From Candidatus Poribacteria bacterium (GTDB taxonomy: Bacteria > Poribacteria > WGA-4E > WGA-3G): a stretch of DNA of 64,000 nt. This document shows positions 24,124 through 54,056 of the stretch, piece after piece (positions within the stretch are counted from its first letter, which is position 1; the number at the start of each line of letters is the position of its first letter). The position numbers and the translations under genes are program-made. The stretch spans positions 62,001 through 126,000 of the forward strand of contig JAPPFM010000007.1 in assembly GCA_028821605.1 (NCBI GenBank). The letters are read 5' to 3'. The notes beneath the pieces were generated by a model. That model did no database searches, had not been told where the DNA came from, and saw only the letters and a program-made list of their open reading frames with translations.

Positions 24124-24515
24124 ATGCTTCTGAATCCACTGAGGATCGAACGGGTCGTTTCGAGAGACCAGATTTTGAGTGCGACACGGCGCGTCGCACT
24201 GCTGTCAAACCCAAAGAACTATTCAATCTGTTTAGAGATTGACACGGAACATATCCGAGTTTCCGTGAAAACTCCTGAATTGGGGGAGGCATACGGGAGG
24301 GTGCCTGTAGAATCTGGGAACGGGAAGGTGAGGATTGGTTTGATGCGCGCTTGTTGGTAGAGGCATTGGCACACATTCAAACTGAGTCTTTGTCGATTGA
24401 GTTTACGGGGGAGTTGATTCCTATCCTTATTAAGCCGGTAAGCGAGGATGCCTACATTTCCCTCATCATGCTGATGAGTCTGGAAGCCCTGCAGCATAAG
24501 AGATGTGATTTTTAG
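24124..24515 (+). pseudogene. dnaN: Remnant of DNA polymerase III beta clamp (dnaN), C-terminal part, frameshifted
   Basis: The first frame (24124-24357) reads RVVSRDQILSATRRVALLS and then ELGEAYGRVPVESGNGKV, which follows the beta-clamp pattern of domain 2/3. It is then broken near 24335-24345. The next frame continues DARLLVEALAHIQTESLS, then FTGELIPILIKPV and ends at the YISLIMLM strand, matching the clamp C-terminus (ALK...SGPL.PILIKP...YLIMP). The N-terminal two thirds and a start are absent. It is a decayed fragment, presumably of a duplicated or transferred clamp gene. A functional copy should exist elsewhere. Confidence 0.7.
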
Positions 24516-24612: not shown

Positions 24613-27069
24613 TTATTGTGTTTGTAAACCTTCGTCTATTTCTGGGAAACCTGTTTTCAGGTATTTCGGATTGGTTTGGATGTCAGGGGGATAGTGGATT
24701 TCCCATATTTTAACATCAGCAATGGCATCACCATCGGAGGGGTAAGCGGGGACGAAGATGTCCGGCAGGTCACCAAGGAAGTAGAGACGGACAGCGAGGC
24801 TATTCCACCCCTTCGTCGATACATGATAGGCTTTGTTGAGATGTTGATGTTCGTCGGGTTGATGGGTTTCATAATATAAGATAACGCCACCGTGTGGTTT
24901 TTCTGCTCCTGACATTTCGTAAAAGTGACGTGTCCTATCTTTGAATGCAATGTAAGGGAGGCGCGCGATGTCTCTGTTTCTCATACGGGCGGTTAAGAAA
25001 TTAGGATGGGACTCCGCATCGGGATCTATTGCTTCTATGTAAGCAAATGGCGTTTTACGAAGATTTGCGAGCCGTTGGGGAGCACCTACTTTTTTCGGGA
25101 GGATAGCAAGGGGTCCAATCTCAAATTTTCTATCGGCATCTTCATTGCTGCCAATCATGGAATAGCCAGAGGTATTGAAGACAAGTTCATGCTTTGTTAG
25201 CATCAGATGCGTTGCGCCGTGTGTTTTCAGGAATTCAAGTGCCTCTTGCTCGGACTGTGCACAGAAGACGTGACGAAAATAGAAATGTATCCAGTGCGGA
25301 ATGTAATGATCGGAGTCTGTAATGGTTTTGACACCTCCGAGGACATTGAGTTGGTTCCCGTATGACCAACTTGATGCAACTACGGAGGCTTGTGGAAGTG
25401 TGGTTCGCATCCACTCTAATGCTTGTTTCATGCTGCCTTGGCCTGGTATTGGGTTGCGTCGGATTGTGGCGTTGTAGGTCATCTTGTTTGCATACCCTCC
25501 AAGTGTAGGTAAAAAGAGAATTACGATGAACACCATAATCGCAAGGCATGAGGTTATCAGTTTTGAGCTTAGCTCGGGATGCAGGATTTTTTTAGATTTG
25601 AGTTTTTCTGTAATGAGTGCTGGCACATTCCATAACAGTAATGCTGTACCGTAAGCGAGGGGGACACCGGTAAAGAAGTCATGTCGTTTGCCCCCGCGTG
25701 AGAGTCCGACCCATAACAGAAACCATGCGAGTGTGGCGAGTGTTACAAATTCGTTTTTTGGGCGTTTCTTTTCTAAACAAGTGATACCGAGACATAAGAC
25801 AGTTAGCCCAAATGAAATGAGAAAGAGCATGTTGCAGGCGTTGTCTCCAATGCCCCCATCAATCTGTTCGCGAAAGAAGGTTGTTATGATGAACAGAGAG
25901 AGGGTCAGTGCTAAAGGAACTCCTTTCCACTTCCATAATTGAAGACAGGCGATTATCATTCCGAGGCTACCTAACAGAAACACACTGCCGTAACGGTTTC
26001 TCCAGTAATTGAAGTCTGGATCCACTAACTCGCCAATGGATTTCATTAAGTGGCTCTCGCGAAATGGGTAAGCGGTTGTTTCAAAGATATCGGTTTGGAG
26101 AAAGAAATAGCTGATACCTGCGGTCATGGCAAGGAGTGTAAATCCCCATGCAAGTTTCTGTGCATGAGTGCGGAGCGACTCGACGTATTTGAGCAGCAGA
26201 TAGCGTGTGCCTCGCAGTGCTAAAATCGCGAGCGGCGGCAGTAACATCAGTGCGGCGACGTGTGTGGAGAACCCATATCCGCTGTGATAGGCAGGACTGA
26301 TAAGGTATAACCAAGGAACGAACATGAGTATATAGAGCAGGTACTCTTTTAGGTGTGCTTCCGTGTCCGTGGTACAGAACTTGTAGAGTTCTACGGCAAC
26401 AATCATCAAACCGAAAAAACCGAAGCCTTCCCAGCTCATACCACCCAAGAAAACGATAAAGCCTGAGAGTGCGGTGGCAATCCATCTGCGGTATCCGGGT
26501 GCCATCTGCTCTTTGTAGAGGTAACTGGTGATAGACAGAATCCCGAGCATCCAACACCATGCATCGCGGTCGCCGAACCCGGCGGCACTTCTATCAATGC
26601 TGCCGGGGAGGGTTGCTAACAGCACGCCGACGATAGTTGCAAAGAAGATACCGTGAATCCGCGTGAGAAAAAGGAAAAGGAAACCGAGACCCAAGGTAAA
26701 ACAGAAGACAGGAGCATAGCATTGAATATGATAGCGTGTGAATTTCGGGAATGCCCACGCGAAGGCTTTATGCGTGTAAGCGATAGCATAGGGATACAGA
26801 GAGAGCAGTTGCGTGTTATCTCTACCGAGGGGGAGCCAGCGGTGCATGTCGCGTGCGGGAAGGTTTCCGAGTTCAGCAATCATTTCTACTTGCCCTCTGA
26901 ACAAAAAGGCATCGTAAGCGGTAAAATGTTCGGCCGGGATATGTTCGACACCTTGGATGCGGACCCAGAAGGTAAGGCACAAGAGCCCCAAAAGGAGGGT
27001 AGTGGTGCCGATATGTTTGAAAATCGGGTATCTGCTGAGGTTTTTCCAGTGACGCGCCAATAATTGCAT
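24613..27069 (-). CDS. STT3-like oligosaccharyltransferase (N-glycosylation-type membrane glycosyltransferase)
   Basis: The 818-residue protein has an N-terminal membrane domain with about 13 helices and a C-terminal soluble domain of about 280 residues. The candidate metal/catalytic acidic residues are Asp53 in TAYDAF and the GDRDAW motif (Asp167, Asp169), matching the first- and second-loop acidic motifs of STT3/PglB. A WSYG motif (about 566) stands where WWDYG binds the acceptor sequon, so two of its residues differ. It probably transfers a lipid-linked glycan to secreted proteins. The start at 27069 follows TAGGAT; an in-frame start at 27132 would overlap the upstream gene. Two helical secreted-type genes lie just upstream on the same strand. 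Confidence 0.82.
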   Translation of the reverse strand: MQLLARHWKNLSRYPIFKHIGTTTLLLGLLCLTFWVRIQGVEHIPAEHFTAYDAFLFRGQVEMIAELGNLPARDMHRWLPLGRDNTQLLSLYPYAIAYTHKAFAWAFPKFTRYHIQCYAPVFCFTLGLGFLFLFLTRIHGIFFATIVGVLLATLPGSIDRSAAGFGDRDAWCWMLGILSITSYLYKEQMAPGYRRWIATALSGFIVFLGGMSWEGFGFFGLMIVAVELYKFCTTDTEAHLKEYLLYILMFVPWLYLISPAYHSGYGFSTHVAALMLLPPLAILALRGTRYLLLKYVESLRTHAQKLAWGFTLLAMTAGISYFFLQTDIFETTAYPFRESHLMKSIGELVDPDFNYWRNRYGSVFLLGSLGMIIACLQLWKWKGVPLALTLSLFIITTFFREQIDGGIGDNACNMLFLISFGLTVLCLGITCLEKKRPKNEFVTLATLAWFLLWVGLSRGGKRHDFFTGVPLAYGTALLLWNVPALITEKLKSKKILHPELSSKLITSCLAIMVFIVILFLPTLGGYANKMTYNATIRRNPIPGQGSMKQALEWMRTTLPQASVVASSWSYGNQLNVLGGVKTITDSDHYIPHWIHFYFRHVFCAQSEQEALEFLKTHGATHLMLTKHELVFNTSGYSMIGSNEDADRKFEIGPLAILPKKVGAPQRLANLRKTPFAYIEAIDPDAESHPNFLTARMRNRDIARLPYIAFKDRTRHFYEMSGAEKPHGGVILYYETHQPDEHQHLNKAYHVSTKGWNSLAVRLYFLGDLPDIFVPAYPSDGDAIADVKIWEIHYPPDIQTNPKYLKTGFPEIDEGLQTQ

Positions 27070-27091
27070 CCGAAATCCTACGGGTAATTTG

Positions 27092-27883
27092 TTAGAAAGT
27101 ACCCTCTTTCTCCAACAACTCTGCAACCTCATCGCCCCAGATTTTTTTGACGATGACTTTTCCTACAGCGCGGAACTGGGCATGGAAGGGCGCGGGCATT
27201 TCTGCGACAAGTGTGTCAAGTCTTGTCTTGAATTCACTTTGCATGGCATCAATCCGTTCACCGAGTGCATCAAAGGCTACCTTGGTTGGATAGCGAGATA
27301 CCCACTCTTCAGGCGGCACGATAGCTAACTCGACAAGGTCGGGGTATTTTGCGTCTAATTCTCTGCTTAATTCCGTCATCTTTTCATTCCATTTCACGCG
27401 CCACGCTGACCGTTCTAATTCATCTAATTTCTCAAGAGGGAGTGCTTCCGTTTCCAACTCAACAAATGCTGTCTCAACAGCATCGCGAATCTCGTCATCT
27501 CTGTGATTTTGAGTGCACGGTGCGTTATCCGTATAGAAAACGCCTTGTTTCTCCAACATATCGGCAACCTCGCTGTTCCAGTGTTGGGCGATGTGGGCTT
27601 TTGCTGAAACGAGGAAGTTGGACCGAAACTGCGCTGGTATTTCTGTGATCAGTGGGTGGATTCTCGACTTAAATTCACTGGCTACCTTGGTTGGATAGCG
27701 AGATACCCACTCTTCAGGCGGCACGGTAGCTAACTCGACAAGGTCGGGGTATTTTGCGTCTAATTCTCTGCTTAATTCCGTCATCTTTTCAATCCATTCC
27801 ACGCGCCATGCAATCCGTTCTATTTCTTTAATTGACTCGGCAATACGAGTTTCGTCATTCATGTGGTTCTTGAGATTTTTCAT
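27092..27883 (-). CDS. Two-repeat helical protein, paralogue of the next gene
   Basis: The 263-residue protein consists of two similar modules of about 110-120 residues. Each contains ELSRELDAKYPDLVELA and then PPEEWVSRYPTK (residues about 38-70 and 170-203), followed by a helix with EFK and a terminal WG/NSEVADMLEK-like segment. The duplication is visible in the DNA as near-identical blocks around 27280-27400 and 27685-27805. No signal peptide is apparent in this copy. I do not recognise the family. It is a tandem paralogue of the anchored protein upstream and precedes the STT3-like gene by 22 bases. Confidence 0.75.
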   Translation of the reverse strand: MKNLKNHMNDETRIAESIKEIERIAWRVEWIEKMTELSRELDAKYPDLVELATVPPEEWVSRYPTKVASEFKSRIHPLITEIPAQFRSNFLVSAKAHIAQHWNSEVADMLEKQGVFYTDNAPCTQNHRDDEIRDAVETAFVELETEALPLEKLDELERSAWRVKWNEKMTELSRELDAKYPDLVELAIVPPEEWVSRYPTKVAFDALGERIDAMQSEFKTRLDTLVAEMPAPFHAQFRAVGKVIVKKIWGDEVAELLEKEGTF

Positions 27884-27919: not shown

Positions 27920-28648
27920 TTATTCTAAATTGGCTATCAAACCGCCAACGATCTGATTTGCAACCTCATCGCCCCATTTTTGGGCAGCGACATCTCCTAA
28001 TAGAGTGATGTACTCAATCTGATGATCGAAGGGCATTTCTGCGACAAGTGTTCTGAACCTCGCCTTAAATTCACTTTGCATGGCACCAATCCGTTCACCG
28101 AGTGCATCAAAGGCTTCCTTCGTGGGGTAGCGGGCTTGCCACTCTTCAAGCGGGATGGAACCCAGTTCGACAAGATCGGGATATTTGGCGTTTAATTCTG
28201 CGGTTAAAGCCGCCATTTCTTTCTCCCATTTTTCGTGCCATGACTGATGCGCCAAAGCGTCTAACTCCTCGGGGGTGAGTGCCTCCGTTTCTGGGTAGGT
28301 GTGATTCGGGCTGATAAGCGCGCCCAAAGTCGTTGTTTCTTGAAGTTCTGACGTTGCGACTTCGTCATGAGTGTGCCCTGCATGCGTGTGTCCATCATGT
28401 GTGTGTGCGTTGCTCGCGCGTTTTCCATCGTTAGATAGGCTTTGAGTGTCCGCTTTTGCACGTTCGGAAGTTGACCTGTTGGCGTTCACCTCGCCTATCG
28501 GTACAGCTTTATAAATCATAATGGGTTCAAGGACTGATCTGTTATGGTGCCAGAGAAAAAGCGTACCGGTCGTCAACAGTAAGAACGTGACAACAATGCC
28601 ACTCCAGAGAAACAGTTTCTGATCACGGTTTGAAGTTTTCGGAGTCAT
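27920..28648 (-). CDS. Membrane-anchored helical protein with His-rich stretch
   Basis: The product has 242 residues. A transmembrane anchor (about 14-31, GIVVTFLLLTTGTLFLW) is followed by a spacer, a histidine-rich segment (HTHDGHTHAGHTHDE, about 78-92) likely to bind metal such as zinc or nickel, and one copy of the module seen twice in the next gene (AELNAKYPDLVELG and EEWQARYPTKEAFDAL). AAGGGA precedes the ATG. Topology predicts the module in the periplasm. Function unknown; the genomic link with STT3 is only proximity. Confidence 0.75.
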   Translation of the reverse strand: MTPKTSNRDQKLFLWSGIVVTFLLLTTGTLFLWHHNRSVLEPIMIYKAVPIGEVNANRSTSERAKADTQSLSNDGKRASNAHTHDGHTHAGHTHDEVATSELQETTTLGALISPNHTYPETEALTPEELDALAHQSWHEKWEKEMAALTAELNAKYPDLVELGSIPLEEWQARYPTKEAFDALGERIGAMQSEFKARFRTLVAEMPFDHQIEYITLLGDVAAQKWGDEVANQIVGGLIANLE

Positions 28649-28802: not shown

Positions 28803-29162
28803 TTAGCTGTCACACGTGTGACTCTCACACGTGTAATATAGTACTTTGCATTTCGTGCATAGCTTGACATGATGACTGCTTGACGATACTTGCGTAGTAC
28901 AGTTGGATGCGCCACATTGTGTAAATTCCTCTGTTGGATGATTCGCGGGATGTTCCGACCCGCTCTTGTGATCTGTTATCTTCTTTTTCAAATAACCGTA
29001 GACACCTTTTATTCCTTCAATTGTAACATGTTGTGCCACGCTCTCTATAATTTTCCCGATATTATCCGCCTCCGCTTCTTTTGGCTGCATGAGCATCGGG
29101 GTGAAGAGGGTGAAAGTAAAAACAACAAGTGTTAGAAAAGCAGTGTTTCTCAATATCTTCAT
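28803..29162 (-). CDS. Secreted Cys-rich hypothetical protein (119 aa)
   Basis: The start at 29162 (MKILRNTAF) follows GGAGA by 8 nt; a longer open frame begins at 29213 without a site. A signal peptide (LTLVVFTFTLFTPML) probably ends near EAEA. The mature protein has a helical basic part and a C-terminal six-cysteine section with CGASNC and CTKCKVLYYTCESHTC, suggesting two disulfides or a zinc site. I do not recognise the family. Its stop region contains the palindrome GTCACACGTGTGAC (28808-28821) within the last codons. Confidence 0.7.
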   Translation of the reverse strand: MKILRNTAFLTLVVFTFTLFTPMLMQPKEAEADNIGKIIESVAQHVTIEGIKGVYGYLKKKITDHKSGSEHPANHPTEEFTQCGASNCTTQVSSSSHHVKLCTKCKVLYYTCESHTCDS

Positions 29163-29431
29163 TAGAGGTTTCTCCATTATTTTGCGGATCGCTTTGAGAA
29201 GGCTATTGGGCAAGTGTGTTTTGCGTTCTTTGGCAATCCTTTCGTTATAGCGTGCCAGCTTCCAATTATACCGATATCACAATACAATAGAAAACCGCAT
29301 TATCAAATCGTTGGTAACACCGTCGGTGCCCCTACGTGCTACAGTTGAGTTCACGTTTATAGTAGCAAGTATCATGCCAATGTGAAAAACCTGACTGTTA
29401 CGGGATCTCACGGTTTTTTCCACTGTAAGGT

Positions 29432-29486
29432 TTCTTTACAATTGTAAAGAATATTTACACTAAGCTGTAAAGTTTCTTTACAATTG
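29432..29486. promoter_or_regulatory. Tandem palindromic operator candidate
   Basis: A perfect 20-bp palindrome, TTCTTTACAA followed by its reverse complement, lies at 29432-29451. A second site TGTAAAG-TTT-CTTTACA lies at 29466-29482. They sit in the 461-base gap between the Cys-rich protein gene and the end of the sigma54 activator gene, about 270-320 bases upstream of the former. The spacing fits a binding site for a dimeric regulator. The rest of that gap holds a TATAAT at 29265-29270 (minus strand) and the 27-nt palindrome at 29598. Confidence 0.5.
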
Positions 29487-29597: not shown

Positions 29598-29624
29598 GTA
29601 GGGGCGAGGCCACCTCGCCCCTAC
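29598..29624. repeat. 27-nt palindromic repeat (GTAGGGG family), copy 2
   Basis: GTAGGGGCGAGG, CCA, CCTCGCCCCTAC: a perfect 12-bp stem with 3-nt loop. Its last base is the final base of the sigma54 activator stop codon (minus strand), so here it can serve as a transcript-ending hairpin. Confidence 0.8.
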
Positions 29625-30898
29625 TATATTTGTGTAAGTTCTATGCCTTCAGCTCTATAGATGTTTAACTTGGCATCCAAGGTGGGCCGGCTAATCCGTA
29701 AAACCTCTGCCGTTTTTGATTTATTTCCATTCTCTCGCGCCAAAGTTTCCAAGATGGCTGATTTCACTATCTCTTGCAGGGGTGTACCGATCGGGAAGGT
29801 CAGCACGAAACATTCTGGGGCATTAGGGTTTGTTGAGACTGTTGCATCGGTGGACGGCAATGCATGGACTTGAGGAGTCCACAAATCAGGGGGTAAGTGG
29901 TGCGGTAAGATATCTCCCTCTTCGGCTAAAAGTACCGCGTAACCTATGACACCTTCTAACTCGCGGATATTCCCAGACCAGCTGTAGGCATCAAGTAACG
30001 AAAGGACTTCTGGATGTATGTCCACTACCTTCTGATTGGAAAGGTTGTTTTCCTTTATCAAAAAGTGTTTTGCCAACGCAGGGATGTCTTCCCGCCGCTC
30101 CCGTAACGCTGGCAGCTGAATATGAAGGGGTTTCAATCGCTCATAGAGATCTCGGCGAAACTTGCCTGCTGCAACTGCTTCCGCAAGGTCGGTGTTAGTC
30201 GCCGCCAGAACGCGCACTGACACTGGAATCTGTTTTGTCCCTCCTACGCGGCGAATCTCGTTTTCTTGAAGTACCCGCAGCAATTTCGGTTGTAGGTGCA
30301 TCGGAAGTTCCCCGATTTCGTCAAGAAACAGGGTGCCCCCCGATGCGGTTTCAAATAGCCCCTTATGTAGCTGATCGGCACCGGTAAACGCGCCCTTCTC
30401 ATGTCCAAAGAGTTCATTCTCTATCAAGTTCTCTGCAAACTCCGCACAGTTCACGATAATCAGGCGGGACGTTGCATAAGGGCTCTCTGTGTGCAAAGCA
30501 CGCGCGACCAACTCTTTACCTGTTCCTGTCTCCCCAGAAATAAGCACCGGCTTAGAAGATTTTGCGAACCGGTCAATACTTTTCAGCACTTCAAGATGCA
30601 CTGTACTCTCACCGAGGAGGTCGTCGTAATTCCCCTGCAACTGCTCTCTTGATAATAGTGCTTTCGGGGGCTTCACCATTTCCGCCTTCGGTGGTATTTC
30701 GGTGCCGTTGGCAAGTGGAAACTCGCTGGACGAAAAGGCTTTTTGGAGAAACGGTTGACTTTCTTCGGAGCAGGTAAAGGGACCGGGACCGTAATGTCTA
30801 AAGTAGTTATCCAGAAGGTCCCAATCGATACTATCGGCGAGCATAAGCGAGGCAGACACATCTCCTAAAGTACTTTTACGAGTCCTTTGGTTTTTCAT
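29624..30898 (-). CDS. Sigma54-dependent transcriptional activator (AAA+ and Fis-type HTH)
   Basis: The 424-residue protein has a short N-terminus without a receiver domain, an AAA+ domain with Walker A GETGTGKE (122-129), the sigma54-contact loop GAFTGA (169-174), Walker [10 protein letters not shown] (about 192-200), and a C-terminal Fis-type helix-turn-helix (about 385-424, [19 protein letters not shown]). It should open sigma54-RNA polymerase promoters by ATP hydrolysis. The signal it senses is not evident. The start at 30898 follows AAAGGGAAAG; an upstream in-frame ATG at 30985 has no site. The target could be the promoter at 62867-62883 or others outside the window. Confidence 0.9.
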
Positions 30899-30993
30899 AG
30901 TCTTTCCCTTTTGGGACACTGAGGAGATTGTTTCTGTCGCGTTCGCTACGAGTGATACCACCCATTGAGGGTTCGGCATTGTCATGTACCGAA

Positions 30994-31896
30994 CTAATTA
31001 ATTTCCGCCCCAGACATCTGCTCTAACGCCAACATCAGTGCTTGCGTGCCCAGCCTACCGTGTCCTTGTGCTTGCACCGCCGTGTAAAGTTGATGTACTA
31101 ATGCGAGTCCCGGCAGACTTAAATTCATCTTACGCGCTTCGTCTAAAGCGATGCTCATGTCTTTGATGAAATGCTCTACAAAGAAACCGGGATCGAAGTT
31201 TCGCTGGAGGAGCCGTGGTGCTAAATTGTCTAAAGACCAGCACGCGGCAGCACCACCACTAATTGATGACAGCATCGTTTCCAAATCCAATCCGGCTTTA
31301 TAACCGTAGAGCAATCCTTCACAGACCCCGATCATTGTCCCGGAAATCGTGATTTGGTTACACATTTTGGTGTGTTGCCCTGCGCCTGCGCCACCTTGAT
31401 GGACGATGTTTTTGCCCATTGCTTCAAAGAGCGGCATAACGGCTTGAACGGCAGCCTCATCGCCTCCCACCATAATAGAGAGCCTCGCTTCTCTTGCACC
31501 GACATCGCCACCTGAAACGGGCGCGTCTATGGATGAGACATCTTGTGCTTGTGCTGCGGCGTGAATCTCTTGGGCGAGGGAAGGCTCCGTCGTCGTCATG
31601 TCGACGATGATGCTTCCTGCTTTGGCTCCCTTTAAGATACCGTTGTCGCCGAGATAAACCTCACGTACATCGGGTGGGAATCCGACGATCGTGAAAACAA
31701 TATCGGATGCTGCCGCAACTTCGCTCGGCGAATCTGCCCATGCTGCACCCGCCTCTAACAACGGATCAGCCTTGGCTTTCGTACGGTTGTAGACCGTCAT
31801 CCCGTATCCCAGGTCCATCAGGTGCTGGCACATCCAGCGTCCCATTACACCGGTTCCGATCCAACCCAATTTCGTGGTTGTAGGTTCGATTTTCAT
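30994..31896 (-). CDS. NAD(P)-dependent beta-hydroxyacid dehydrogenase (3-hydroxyisobutyrate dehydrogenase family)
   Basis: The 300-residue enzyme has an N-terminal Rossmann fold with [10 protein letters not shown] (about 11-20), the substrate motif [14 protein letters not shown] (about 123-136) and the catalytic Lys in [11 protein letters not shown] (about 174-184). Members oxidise or reduce beta-hydroxy acids such as 3-hydroxyisobutyrate, tartronate semialdehyde or glyoxylate; the substrate is not decided here. A clear AAGGA precedes the ATG. Its start overlaps the stop of the upstream flippase-like gene by 4 bases. Confidence 0.9.
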
Positions 31897-32933
31897 AATA
31901 TTCCTTTCTTATTTCTTCTAAAATCCTTTGCTAATTGTAAACTAATAACAACACCACCCACAACGACTGCACAGTAGATGGTAAAGAATCGCGTTAGCAA
32001 TACGAAGAGCGGTATCAAGTCTTTGAGAATCAAATTTTCCATCAATCCAGCAGTCACAACCTCTGCCACCCCACTTGCGCCGGGGCTTGGTGCGAACAGC
32101 ACAACAAAATTGAGTAGCAACCCGATGACACTGAGTTCCCACAGCGTTGCCTCGCCATTAAGTGCTTGGACAACGATGTAACTGCCAACGATCCGTGCAC
32201 CTAAAAAACCGCAGGTTAGGAATACACTGAGCACGCAAGTCCCTTTATGGTGGCGAAGAAACATCGTCGCAAAGGCTTTATGTTCAGTCGTGAGTTCCTC
32301 CAATTTTGATGTCGTGCGTTCTAAGGCAGGGGCGAGGCGGGTGAACCGTCGCTTCGCCGCATTACAGAGCCAATTGAAAAAACGGAAAACAATTTCTGGC
32401 TTGAAAAGCAGGAGCAGAAACGAAGCGAATGCCAAGCTGAACGCCAAAAAACTAAATAGGCTCACCCATGTAGCCGTCTTCGGTAAAAAAGGCGGATCTA
32501 ACCAAGTAATACCGCCTGCGAAGACAATCAGTGTGACTAAAGTAGAAAGAAAACAGATGATGCCTGATGTTAGCGCGCCTGATAACGGCACGCCTGCTCG
32601 GGTGTAGATATACAGATGACCAACTCCACCTGTTTGAAAGGGTGTAATACACGACACGCAGAGCGTCGCTAAGTTGGCGCGGAGGCTATCCCTGAATCGA
32701 ATCTCTGGACGTACTTTCCGAATGAAAATATGGAAGCGAAGCGCACCAAATATCCAATCCGCGAACATACATAGGCACGCGCCCAACAACATCTCGACCT
32801 GCATCTCGCGAAAAACTTGCTTTATATCTTGCGTACCACTCCACAGAAAACTGATGAATAACCCGGCAAATGTAAACAGCACAAAAAAAAGCGCGCCACG
32901 AGCCACGTTTCCGCGGCTCAAGAATTCCTGCAT
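31893..32933 (-). CDS. Lysylphosphatidylglycerol synthase transmembrane/flippase-like protein (UPF0104)
   Basis: The 346-residue protein has about eight membrane helices and matches the YbhN/AglD-type family, with the features [19 protein letters not shown] (about 84-102) and [14 protein letters not shown] (about 273-286), where the PSPGASG turn is characteristic. These proteins are membrane domains of lipid flippases or synthases. Only the membrane part is present; there is no cytoplasmic synthase domain. It is translationally coupled to the downstream dehydrogenase gene by a 4-base overlap. Confidence 0.85.
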
Positions 32934-52649: not shown

Positions 52650-52952
52650 GAAATGTATTTCACGCGGCTGAAAGGAGGCAATATATGCACATTTGACGCA
52701 CTTGGCGTTGTATGTACAACCGAGGCACGAATATTAAGTCAACCAAAAACCCCAATCTTGCGTTAATGTATGGAAAACCACAATGTGCTATGGAAAATCG
52801 GTTTCTGTACCGTCGCAATTATATTTTCTAAAAACCAAAAAAGGGTTGCGCATGGTAATGACGCACTGTGCCGCAATCGGCTTTTAGAAATTAAAATTGC
52901 CCAAACTTAAATATATTCGTCCTTGTTTATAATATACTTTAAGGAGCACATT
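52650..52952 (+). other. Regulatory gap before the second sigma54-type activator
   Basis: It holds a palindrome GTTGTATGTACAAC (52706-52719), a longer inverted repeat of TTTTCTAAAAACC with GGCTTTTAGAAAT around 52825-52892, and a TATAAT at 52928-52933 with no good -35. AAGGAG at 52941-52946 is the ribosome binding site of the next gene. Confidence 0.45.
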
Positions 52953-54056
52953 ATGAATCGGCAGTCAGTGTTCATAGAATTGCCGTCGGTATCGATGCAG
53001 GCAATTTATAACACAATTCAACGAATAATGGAATCAAACATTCCGTTCTTCATTACTGGTGAAACCGGTGTTGGCAAGGAAGGAATCGCGAGATACATTC
53101 ACGAAAACGGTCCACGACGGGACCAACCTTTTATAGCGATCAACTGTGGTAGATTCTCCGCGGAACTTTTGCAAAGTGAGCTCTTTGGGCATGAGGCCGG
53201 AGCGTTCACGAGCGCAATCCGACAGCGTCCGGGTGCGTTTGAGATAGCAAATGGTGGTATTCTCTTTTTAGATGAGATTCCCGAGATGTCCTTGGATGCA
53301 CAAAAGATGCTGCTTCGCGTTTTGGACACAGCGACCTTTACGCGTCTCGGTGGAAATGAAGTTTTGACGGTGGATGTCCACATTATCGCTGCGACAAATA
53401 GAGATATTGTAAAGGCTGTTGCGGAAAAAGAATTTAGGGAAGACCTTTATTATCGCCTCAAGGGCATGATGCTTCACCTCCCACCGTTACGGGAGCGTCC
53501 AGAAGATATTGCGCCGTTGGTTTCAGCTTTTATTGACGAATTCAGTTCCGAATATGGGAAAAACGTTACGGGGATTACGCGGGAGGCTCTTGCTCATCTT
53601 GAGCAGGCTGCGTGGCCCGGGAATATCCGTCAGCTGAGAAGCACTGTTCAGACGGCTGTCGCGCTCGCAACGGCTGACAGGCTTGAACCCAAGGATTTTC
53701 CAGAAATCTATCCTGAGTTCGTTGAGACGCTCATCTCTATATGGCAGGCGCTCCCACTGGAGACGCAGCATGCGATATGGGATACACTCCCACCGGAAAC
53801 CCAGCACATAATTATGCATGAACTCGCGACGCAGACTCCGAAGCCTTGGCGTAGTTTGCAGGTTCCCGGTATTCCGGGAGTCGGTGGTAAGTCGGAATTT
53901 CTCAATATAGGGAATATGAATCAAAACCAAATTCTACATGCAGTTGCCCAGCGGCGTGTTGAACAATACTCCTCGCTCCGTGAAGCGGCTGAATCGTTGG
54001 ATATTGATATCCGAACCCTACAGAAATACGCCCAGTGGGAGGAGTCAGACAATTGA
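52953..54056 (+). CDS. Sigma54-type AAA+ transcriptional regulator with GAFTSA loop
   Basis: The 367-residue protein starts almost directly with its AAA+ domain: Walker A GETGVGKE (36-43), the loop GAFTSA (83-88) in place of GAFTGA, Walker B ILFLDEIPEM and sensor RLKGMMLHLPPLRERPEDI. A linker carries the duplicated phrase PLETQHAIW / PPETQHIIM (about 268-290). The C-terminal helix-turn-helix (about 325-360) is atypical (REAAESLDIDIRTLQKY). The Gly-to-Ser change at the sigma54 contact could weaken or change that interaction. The start at 52953 follows AAGGAG. No receiver or sensory domain is present. Confidence 0.88.
   Translation: MNRQSVFIELPSVSMQAIYNTIQRIMESNIPFFITGETGVGKEGIARYIHENGPRRDQPFIAINCGRFSAELLQSELFGHEAGAFTSAIRQRPGAFEIANGGILFLDEIPEMSLDAQKMLLRVLDTATFTRLGGNEVLTVDVHIIAATNRDIVKAVAEKEFREDLYYRLKGMMLHLPPLRERPEDIAPLVSAFIDEFSSEYGKNVTGITREALAHLEQAAWPGNIRQLRSTVQTAVALATADRLEPKDFPEIYPEFVETLISIWQALPLETQHAIWDTLPPETQHIIMHELATQTPKPWRSLQVPGIPGVGGKSEFLNIGNMNQNQILHAVAQRRVEQYSSLREAAESLDIDIRTLQKYAQWEESDN

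Follow-up and report, generated by a model that had tools for sequence, protein, structure and literature searches.

The window, by which we mean the whole stretch of 64,000 nucleotides analyzed here (GenBank assembly GCA_028821605.1, contig JAPPFM010000007.1, positions 62,001 to 126,000 of the forward strand), comes from a Candidatus Poribacteria bacterium, a member of a phylum of sponge-associated symbionts. It encodes a protein resembling the oligosaccharyltransferases (OSTs) STT3, AglB, and PglB. Upstream of this gene the order is a sigma-54 activator, three dyads, a promoter-like site, and the gene of a small exported Cys-rich protein (Table 1). A preliminary description had placed the OST-like gene at 24613-27069, which is the same open reading frame (ORF) but begins at Met22, while the full ORF is 24613-27132. 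Its true start is uncertain, because most relatives align only from about residue 36-46. The motifs named in that description were all present: YDAF at residues 73-76, GDRDAW at 187-192, and SSWSYG at 587-592. The genome (5.99 Mb, 60 contigs) has two members of the family, the window copy and a copy on contig C44, which are 49% identical.

Table 1. Features of the window around the OST-like gene (EL, external loop; aa, amino acids; HTH, helix-turn-helix).
Feature	Position	Strand	Remarks
STT3/AglB/PglB-like GT-C gene	24613..27132	minus	intact ORF, 839 aa; 818 aa if started at Met22 (27069)
D606-S-D-H codons, likely equivalent of the DGGK/DNNT loop	25306..25317	minus	D606 83/84, D608 79/84; spacing as in PglB
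S588-W589-S590-Y591-G592 codons, replacing WWDYG	25357..25371	minus	from alignment of paralogues
E368 codon, TIXE/SVSE-like Glu of EL5 (SIGE)	26029..26031	minus	66/66; 84/84; TIXE identity inferred from context
D188-R189-D190 codons, EL2 DxD	26563..26571	minus	66/66; both Asp 84/84
D74 codon, EL1 metal-site Asp	26911..26913	minus	66/66; 83/84 and one gap
263-aa protein	27092..27883	minus	KYPDLVEL..PPEEW domain present twice; no membrane helix by hydropathy rule
242-aa membrane-anchored protein	27920..28648	minus	transmembrane helix, PIMIYK motif, His-rich stretch, KYPDLVEL domain
Small exported Cys-rich protein, candidate acceptor	28803..29213	minus	first ATG 29177; putative cleavage after KEAEA
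Sigma-54 (-24/-12) promoter-like site TGGCATGATACTTGC	29365..29379	minus	before the small-protein gene
Three dyads TGTAAA-N5-TTTACA, third TGTAAAGAAACCTTACA	29424..29482	minus	likely activator sites
Sigma-54 activator	29624..30985	minus	AAA+ and Fis-type HTH, no receiver domain found; PF00158, E 4e-66

Searches with the window protein alone gave little. It matched no Pfam family at E ≤ 0.01 and is thus below the gathering score of PF02516, and its NCBIfam match to TIGR04154 (archaeo_STT3, E = 7e-14) reached 51.1 bits, under the curated cut-off of 450. A phmmer search of the PDB returned weak matches (E = 0.17 and 1.3), and a single-sequence search of plasmids found no match. As single-sequence searches were too weak, the family was settled by profiles and by a structural model. 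A 40-row family profile matched yeast STT3 in the PDB with E = 5.7e-6. This score was carried mainly by the C-terminal stretch with WDYG; the N-terminal stretch, in which RSVAGSYDNEA was paired with RSaaGFGDRDa, was weak on its own. PF02516 was matched by 15 of the 40 aligned family sequences (E ≤ 0.01), and the C44 paralogue exceeded its cut-off. A further PF02516 match in the same genome, on contig C32, was rejected as a family member since it was not recovered in the search with the window protein; from its start (...YWDEGFH...) we take it to be an ordinary GT-C gene.

The AlphaFold model of the window protein had a mean predicted local distance difference test score (pLDDT) of 86.6 and a predicted template modeling score (pTM) of 0.86. 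Its first six Foldseek rows included AglB (7e9s, E = 2.8e-15), human OST-A, PglB, and yeast STT3. In VIA-align, yeast STT3 gave a Z of 29.3 (564 residues, 3.6 Å), AglB gave 27.4 (3waj) and 22.2 (apo chain 3wak), and PglB gave 22.5. The model matched STT3, AglB, and PglB over nearly its own full length (Z 29-22), and the C-terminal domain of C. jejuni PglB aligned to model residues 546-793 (Z 16.6). The comparison with PglB that the preliminary description had proposed therefore showed a matching fold. That description had also set STT3 against the families GT39 and GT83, and the comparison came out for STT3: Pmt1-Pmt2 (GT39) and ArnT (GT83), which share the general GT-C fold, scored only 19.7 and 19.1, about ten Z units under yeast STT3 and about three under PglB, and Pfam matched neither family to the window protein. 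Judged by its model, the window protein is a divergent GT-C enzyme of the STT3/AglB/PglB type, of STT3 descent rather than of GT39 or GT83 descent. The assignment to the STT3 family made earlier is thus borne out, as the modeled fold, the profile kinship, and the fixed catalytic acids agree.

DPY19 was as near to the model as PglB (Z 22.1, 572 residues, 3.9 Å). Because of this tie we kept another explanation, that an STT3-descended GT-C enzyme uses a polyprenyl-monophosphate sugar and transfers it, without a sequon, to some other residue, like the DPY19 C-mannosyltransferases. Neighboring GT2 genes resembling AglJ or dolichol monophosphate mannose synthase (DPM) would supply such a monophosphate sugar, and a monophosphate donor is a possible point of likeness to DPY19. 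However, most yeast, human, and archaeal STT3/AglB chains lay nearer to the model, at Z 25-29, the apo AglB chain being the one at 22.2. The metal acids of the OST type and a TIXE-like Glu are moreover fixed in the family, while DPY19 is said not to need OST-type metal acids. We consider a DPY19-like activity rather improbable.

The residues D74, D188, D190, and E368 were invariant in all 66 non-redundant sequences of at least 600 aa, the window's included, so the YDAF and GDRDAW motifs are not a chance occurrence. In a wider set of 84 rows, D188, D190, and E368 were fixed throughout and D74 in 83, with one gap. Copies under 600 aa (alignments and tree) or under 550 aa (cassette counts) and exact duplicates were left out before counting, and the 84 rows contain two genes twice at slightly different lengths (L147/L122 and L148/L113; L numbers denote loci). 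These residues match the EL1 Asp, the EL2 DxD, and the EL5 Glu of OSTs, the last by context. The EL1 Asp, EL2 DxD, and EL5 TIXE/SVSE Glu are described as OST motifs in the accessible part of PMC8342417. E368, in SIGE, directly follows the least confident loop of the model. The near-full-length GT-C fold, these acids, and a C-terminal domain with a W-x-Y-G frame and a DGGK-like Asp are what the family shares with AglB/STT3 (PF02516, TIGR04154).

The acceptor motif behaved differently. The window protein has SSWSYG where OSTs have WWDYG, as the claim of an altered acceptor motif had stated, and among the 84 rows the position of the first Trp (588) was N in 31, H in 18, D in 7, S in 6, P in 4, and W in 4, with other residues in the remainder. 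The position of the Asp (590) was S in 20, D in 18, G in 18, N in 14, E in 6, I in 3, T in 3, P in 1, and H in 1. Beside these variable positions W589 was kept in 81/84 rows, G592 and N596 in 84/84, and D606 in 83/84, and the entropies of 588 (2.89) and 590 (2.64) were the highest within residues 584-612. A variable x-W-x-x-G in place of WWDYG and a fixed Asn596 therefore set the family apart from AglB/STT3, as does the score of the window protein below both curated cut-offs. The spacing resembles that of C. jejuni PglB: S588 and D606 are 18 residues apart, as are W457 and D475, the distance from the WWDYG-like motif to the DGGK-like loop (available portion of PMC3527161). The equivalents of PglB W457 and D459 are both Ser in the window protein. 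WWDYG is termed strictly conserved in N-oligosaccharyltransferases in the same portion of PMC3527161. A full WWDYG was found in only three of the 84 rows (L139, L140, and L145, which are basal and belong to the same class but other orders), and WWHYG in L138. Since WWDYG is general in OSTs, loss of the Ser/Thr pocket probably took place inside the phylum, with the catalytic acids retained, as read from alignments and from a tree with no outgroup root. This tree was a quick one, made without a mixture model, and its long basal branches are unsure. Because WWDYG is absent, the window protein is classed here as an STT3-type enzyme only and not as a sequon-reading N-glycosylating OST (N-OST).

The C-terminal domain occurs in two sizes. 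Short-form OSTs of about 680 aa (e.g., L046, L047, and L042) are without the stretch equivalent to profile positions 620-745, and many of these genes still match the last 50 or so profile positions.

N-glycosylation of secreted proteins, which the preliminary description had expected, did not receive support from the neighboring exported proteins. In 37 small exported proteins, a few of which may be ORFs that are not genes, 32 N-X-S/T sequons were seen against 29.7 expected (z 0.49), and in 86 anchored proteins 140 were seen against 131.5 expected (z 0.79), so neither set was enriched. These flat counts would fit a lost Ser/Thr pocket and speak against plain N-glycosylation, as does the alteration of the pocket responsible for recognizing the +2 Ser/Thr. 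Alternatively, the enzyme could be a general N-OST of the ordinary kind whose pocket for the sequon is relaxed, N-glycosylating many exported proteins and having its neighbors by coincidence. This would be consistent with the STT3 fold, with the presence of all catalytic acids, and with the Asp kept at position 590 in 18 of the 84 rows; relaxation at -2 is known for bacterial OSTs (PMC4894442, as far as its accessible text goes). Against it, the Ser/Thr pocket is altered in the window protein and varies among paralogues, sequons are not enriched in the cassette neighbors, to which the test was confined, and there are multiple paralogues per genome, often beside exported proteins and a regulator, unlike a housekeeping OST. 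We regard a general N-OST as unlikely.

The neighborhood of the OST-like genes was recurrent. On the same strand upstream there was often a small exported Cys-rich protein together with one or two membrane-anchored proteins. We compared OST loci (OSTs of at least 550 aa, upstream stretch of at least 3 kb) with two sets of control genes of at least 300 aa, 121 genes from 20 random regions and 119 genes lying farther off in the same loci. The small exported Cys-rich protein lay in the upstream operon of 32/66 OST loci but of 0/121 and 0/119 control genes. An anchored protein was upstream in 51/66 loci compared with 38/121 and 37/119 controls, and both were upstream in 29/66 loci compared with 0/121 and 0/119. 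An earlier count of proteins with at least three Cys within 5 kb upstream (stretches under 4 kb left out) gave 27/61 loci against 0/31 control genes, which agrees with 32/66. An [AST]EA motif followed the hydrophobic core in 15 of the 37 small proteins and in 0/102 control proteins with such a core. A P-x-x-x-Y motif followed the membrane helix of the anchored protein in 15 loci, a number given with no control set, and several anchored proteins were His-rich. Pfam gave weak matches only, all below curated cut-offs, for ten small, anchored, and upstream exported proteins, and the AlphaFold model of the small protein (5 rows) was of low confidence (pLDDT 48.7, pTM 0.24).

The small proteins fell into several separate BLAST clusters. 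With nine upstream exported-protein families labeled by hand, mostly small Cys-rich and some larger, 43 of the 84 rows could be labeled, and the labels needed 10 changes on the OST tree compared with a mean of 29.4 and a minimum of 25 in 300 shuffles. Enzyme lineages are thus co-inherited with upstream exported-protein families. Of the 15 matches to the small-protein profile A4 at E < 1e-15, 13 lay within 2 kb of a listed OST match (compared by eye), about half of these by construction, since A4 was built from seven rows taken at OST loci.

With the window protein as query, 59 of 84 Poribacteria genomes had a match at E ≤ 0.001. The number of match rows per genome ranged from 0 to 17 among the matches listed, with rows being pieces and not always genes and with some of the 84 genomes having more rows than are listed. 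Genomes of the window's own genus had from none to 15 rows among the matches listed, and the full-length and partial matches listed were between 38% and 85% identical to the window protein, the 85% being that of a partial copy. When 36 genomes, mostly outside the genus, were searched with a profile, members were found in other families, in other orders, and in one genome of another class. A scan of species genomes with the single window protein, which reaches close relatives only, gave 55 loci, all titled Poribacteria. The earlier claim of an OST outside Campylobacterota holds for the host and for these loci, but OSTs with such a placement had been described before: the accessible part of PMC4894442 covers PglB homologues from Desulfovibrio and Geobacter (deltaproteobacteria) and from Hydrogenivirga (aquificae), and OST paralogues are known from the three AglB of A. 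fulgidus (PMC3703281, in the part available).

Many family copies are broken by stops or splits. Together with the patchy distribution over 59 of the 84 genomes and with dnaN fragments that adjoin three cassettes, this would suit pseudo-enzymes or decaying selfish copies, a family that spreads and decays and has simply lost its pocket. Decay, however, does not sit well with a variable pocket beside catalytic acids that are the same in all 84 rows apart from one gap at D74, with the intact window copy, or with a promoter-like site conserved across lineages and dyads in three loci. We give decay only a small probability.

The combination of dyad and promoter-like site occurred once in the 6-Mb genome and 0 times for the reversed pattern. 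The sigma-54 promoter pattern alone occurred 70 times compared with 12 for its reverse, so sigma-54 promoters seem to be generally used in this genome. A TGGCAY-type site was found in 17 of the 18 OST loci that have such an activator in the stretch examined, L146 being the one without; the site lay behind the activator in 10 loci, and upstream of the OST with the activator downstream in 7. Among OST loci the dyads were confined to the window, L039, and L064. The seven OST loci with no activator that were examined had none of the 15-base form, and one of them, L085, had a form with an extra base. Some of these seven have an upstream gene of the extracytoplasmic function (ECF) sigma factor type (L043, L083, L095, and L096). 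One cluster taken as a single ECF family was discarded, as it proved to be WD40 and ECF proteins joined by single linkage. The window also encodes, at 52923-54056 on the plus strand, another sigma-54 activator like that of the cassette (43% identity), with no TGGCAY-type site within 1.5 kb behind it.

GT2 genes lay downstream in 18/64 OST loci, by a loose cluster that includes a few other GT2 types; AglJ/DPM-like genes among them are a further likeness to AglB systems. The best NCBIfam model of the L033 GT2 was AglJ (3.1e-20, below cut-off), and the best PDB match of the L061 GT2 was dolichol monophosphate mannose synthase (7.9e-14). By analogy with haloarchaea, these neighbors suggest a polyprenyl-monophosphate donor. 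In the GT2 gene of L033 (10767-11441, on contig C44) the GDxDDTYDF segment and the C-terminus lie in other frames, and this gene is probably broken or misassembled. Pfam and NCBIfam scans of the genes adjoining the window copy found no glycan-assembly locus. A flippase-like gene (LPG_synthase_TM, TIGR00374) lies at 31893-32933 on the minus strand, two genes upstream of the activator.

We propose, with about even confidence, that the window gene encodes a cassette-dedicated OST-like enzyme with a non-canonical acceptor. The protein would be an inner-membrane transferase of the STT3 family with its active site facing the periplasm, and it would transfer a glycan to protein from a polyprenyl-phosphate carrier by the metal-dependent chemistry usual for OSTs. 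Its acceptor pocket would no longer read the +2 Ser/Thr of N-X-S/T and would have diverged among paralogues toward cassette-specific acceptors. Its most likely acceptor would be the small, exported, Cys-rich protein whose gene opens the operon-like set, and the His-rich membrane-anchored protein encoded in between would present it to the enzyme. The adjacent sigma-54 activator would switch the whole set through the three dyads and the -24/-12 promoter. Of this scheme, sequence or model show the fold, the catalytic acids, the alteration of the pocket, the order of the genes, the dyads and the promoter-like site, and the co-inheritance, whereas we infer that the enzyme is active, which glycan and carrier it uses, which protein it modifies and through what linkage, and that the promoter functions. 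A wider and distinctly more tentative proposal is that Poribacteria hold a diversifying repertoire of substrate-dedicated OSTs, each under its own sigma-54 or ECF regulator and with a private small secreted Cys-rich protein glycosylated at a non-sequon residue, the pocket diverging and the catalytic centre staying fixed.

Several observations weigh against the proposal of a cassette-dedicated enzyme. Ranked by tree changes among 656 columns, position 588 reaches only the 80th percentile and position 590 the 75th; their variability is high for the motif but not extreme when the protein is taken as a whole. In C. jejuni PglB, substitutions at the corresponding pocket positions (W457S, D459V, and D459N-S492C) occurred in inactive clones in the accessible text of PMC3527161. 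By the criteria used, 34 of the 66 OST loci are without a small Cys-rich protein, the cassette criteria were fixed after part of the loci had been inspected, and related cassettes are not independent. Two A4 matches (G030:C16 and G045:C137, as genome and contig) are away from listed OSTs, and another small-protein family, A3, is found also on contigs with no listed OST match (G078:C52 and G075:C36) and in G061, a genome with no OST match at all. Since the known acceptor motif is not enriched, the acceptor is a guess from linkage, and what connects the enzyme with the small protein is only inheritance and position. The window's cassette has no such GT2 of the AglJ-like kind, which weakens the case for a donor pathway in this genome, and the genome's only close AglJ-like GT2, that of the second cassette, is out of frame at the DxD segment.

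A literature search, with subscription journals mostly outside its reach, found no paper joining Poribacteria with oligosaccharyltransferase or STT3, and a term search of the main text of the single-cell Poribacteria paper PMC3909097 found neither 'oligosaccharyl' nor 'glycosyl'. As far as searched, three things are new: how large the paralogue family is, how the pocket varies while the catalytic centre remains fixed, and the cassette with its regulation. The earlier reading of this gene included neither the paralogues nor the cassette. AglB/STT3 differ in this respect, as the family here consists of many paralogues in cassettes with small exported proteins, some with sigma-54 sites. A natural family of this size, with the catalytic acids kept and the sequon pocket varied, would be well suited to asking what the pocket does and which other acceptors OSTs can use, and could be a source of enzymes for glycoengineering. 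It also gives protein glycosylation in a sponge-symbiont phylum a first description that can be tested; if the wider proposal is true, the cassettes would yield a varying set of glycoproteins where sponge and symbiont meet.

Other recurrent features accompany the cassettes. Cys-rich repeat tails (SGSCDSGSC, GTGDCGTGDCG) end several small proteins, in L061 (6437-7099), L050, L157, L104, and L083. In eight loci (L043, L044, L046, L047, L052, L083, L085, and L102), a transmembrane protein about 90 aa long that has a C-x-CC motif (cluster c11) is encoded immediately ahead of the OST-like gene or close to it. A CDP-alcohol phosphatidyltransferase was found downstream in 10 loci, a methyltransferase on either side in 10, and a weakly GspC-like protein on either side in 15. 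PADLOC recognized neither the OST nor the small protein, nor either of the two proteins in between; it matched the activator to RtcR models through the AAA+ domain, and neighbors of relatives as protease-like (L033) and MacB-like (L036). As these matches were only by shared domains, a defense role is not suggested. Fragments that we take, from their sequence, to be dnaN (the beta-clamp gene) lie downstream of three cassettes of the sigma-54 type, in the window (24154-24488, plus strand, frameshifted), in L039 (11805-11882 and 13431-13523, beside an intact copy), and in L064 (6552-6908), as if the cassettes had been inserted or exchanged near dnaN.

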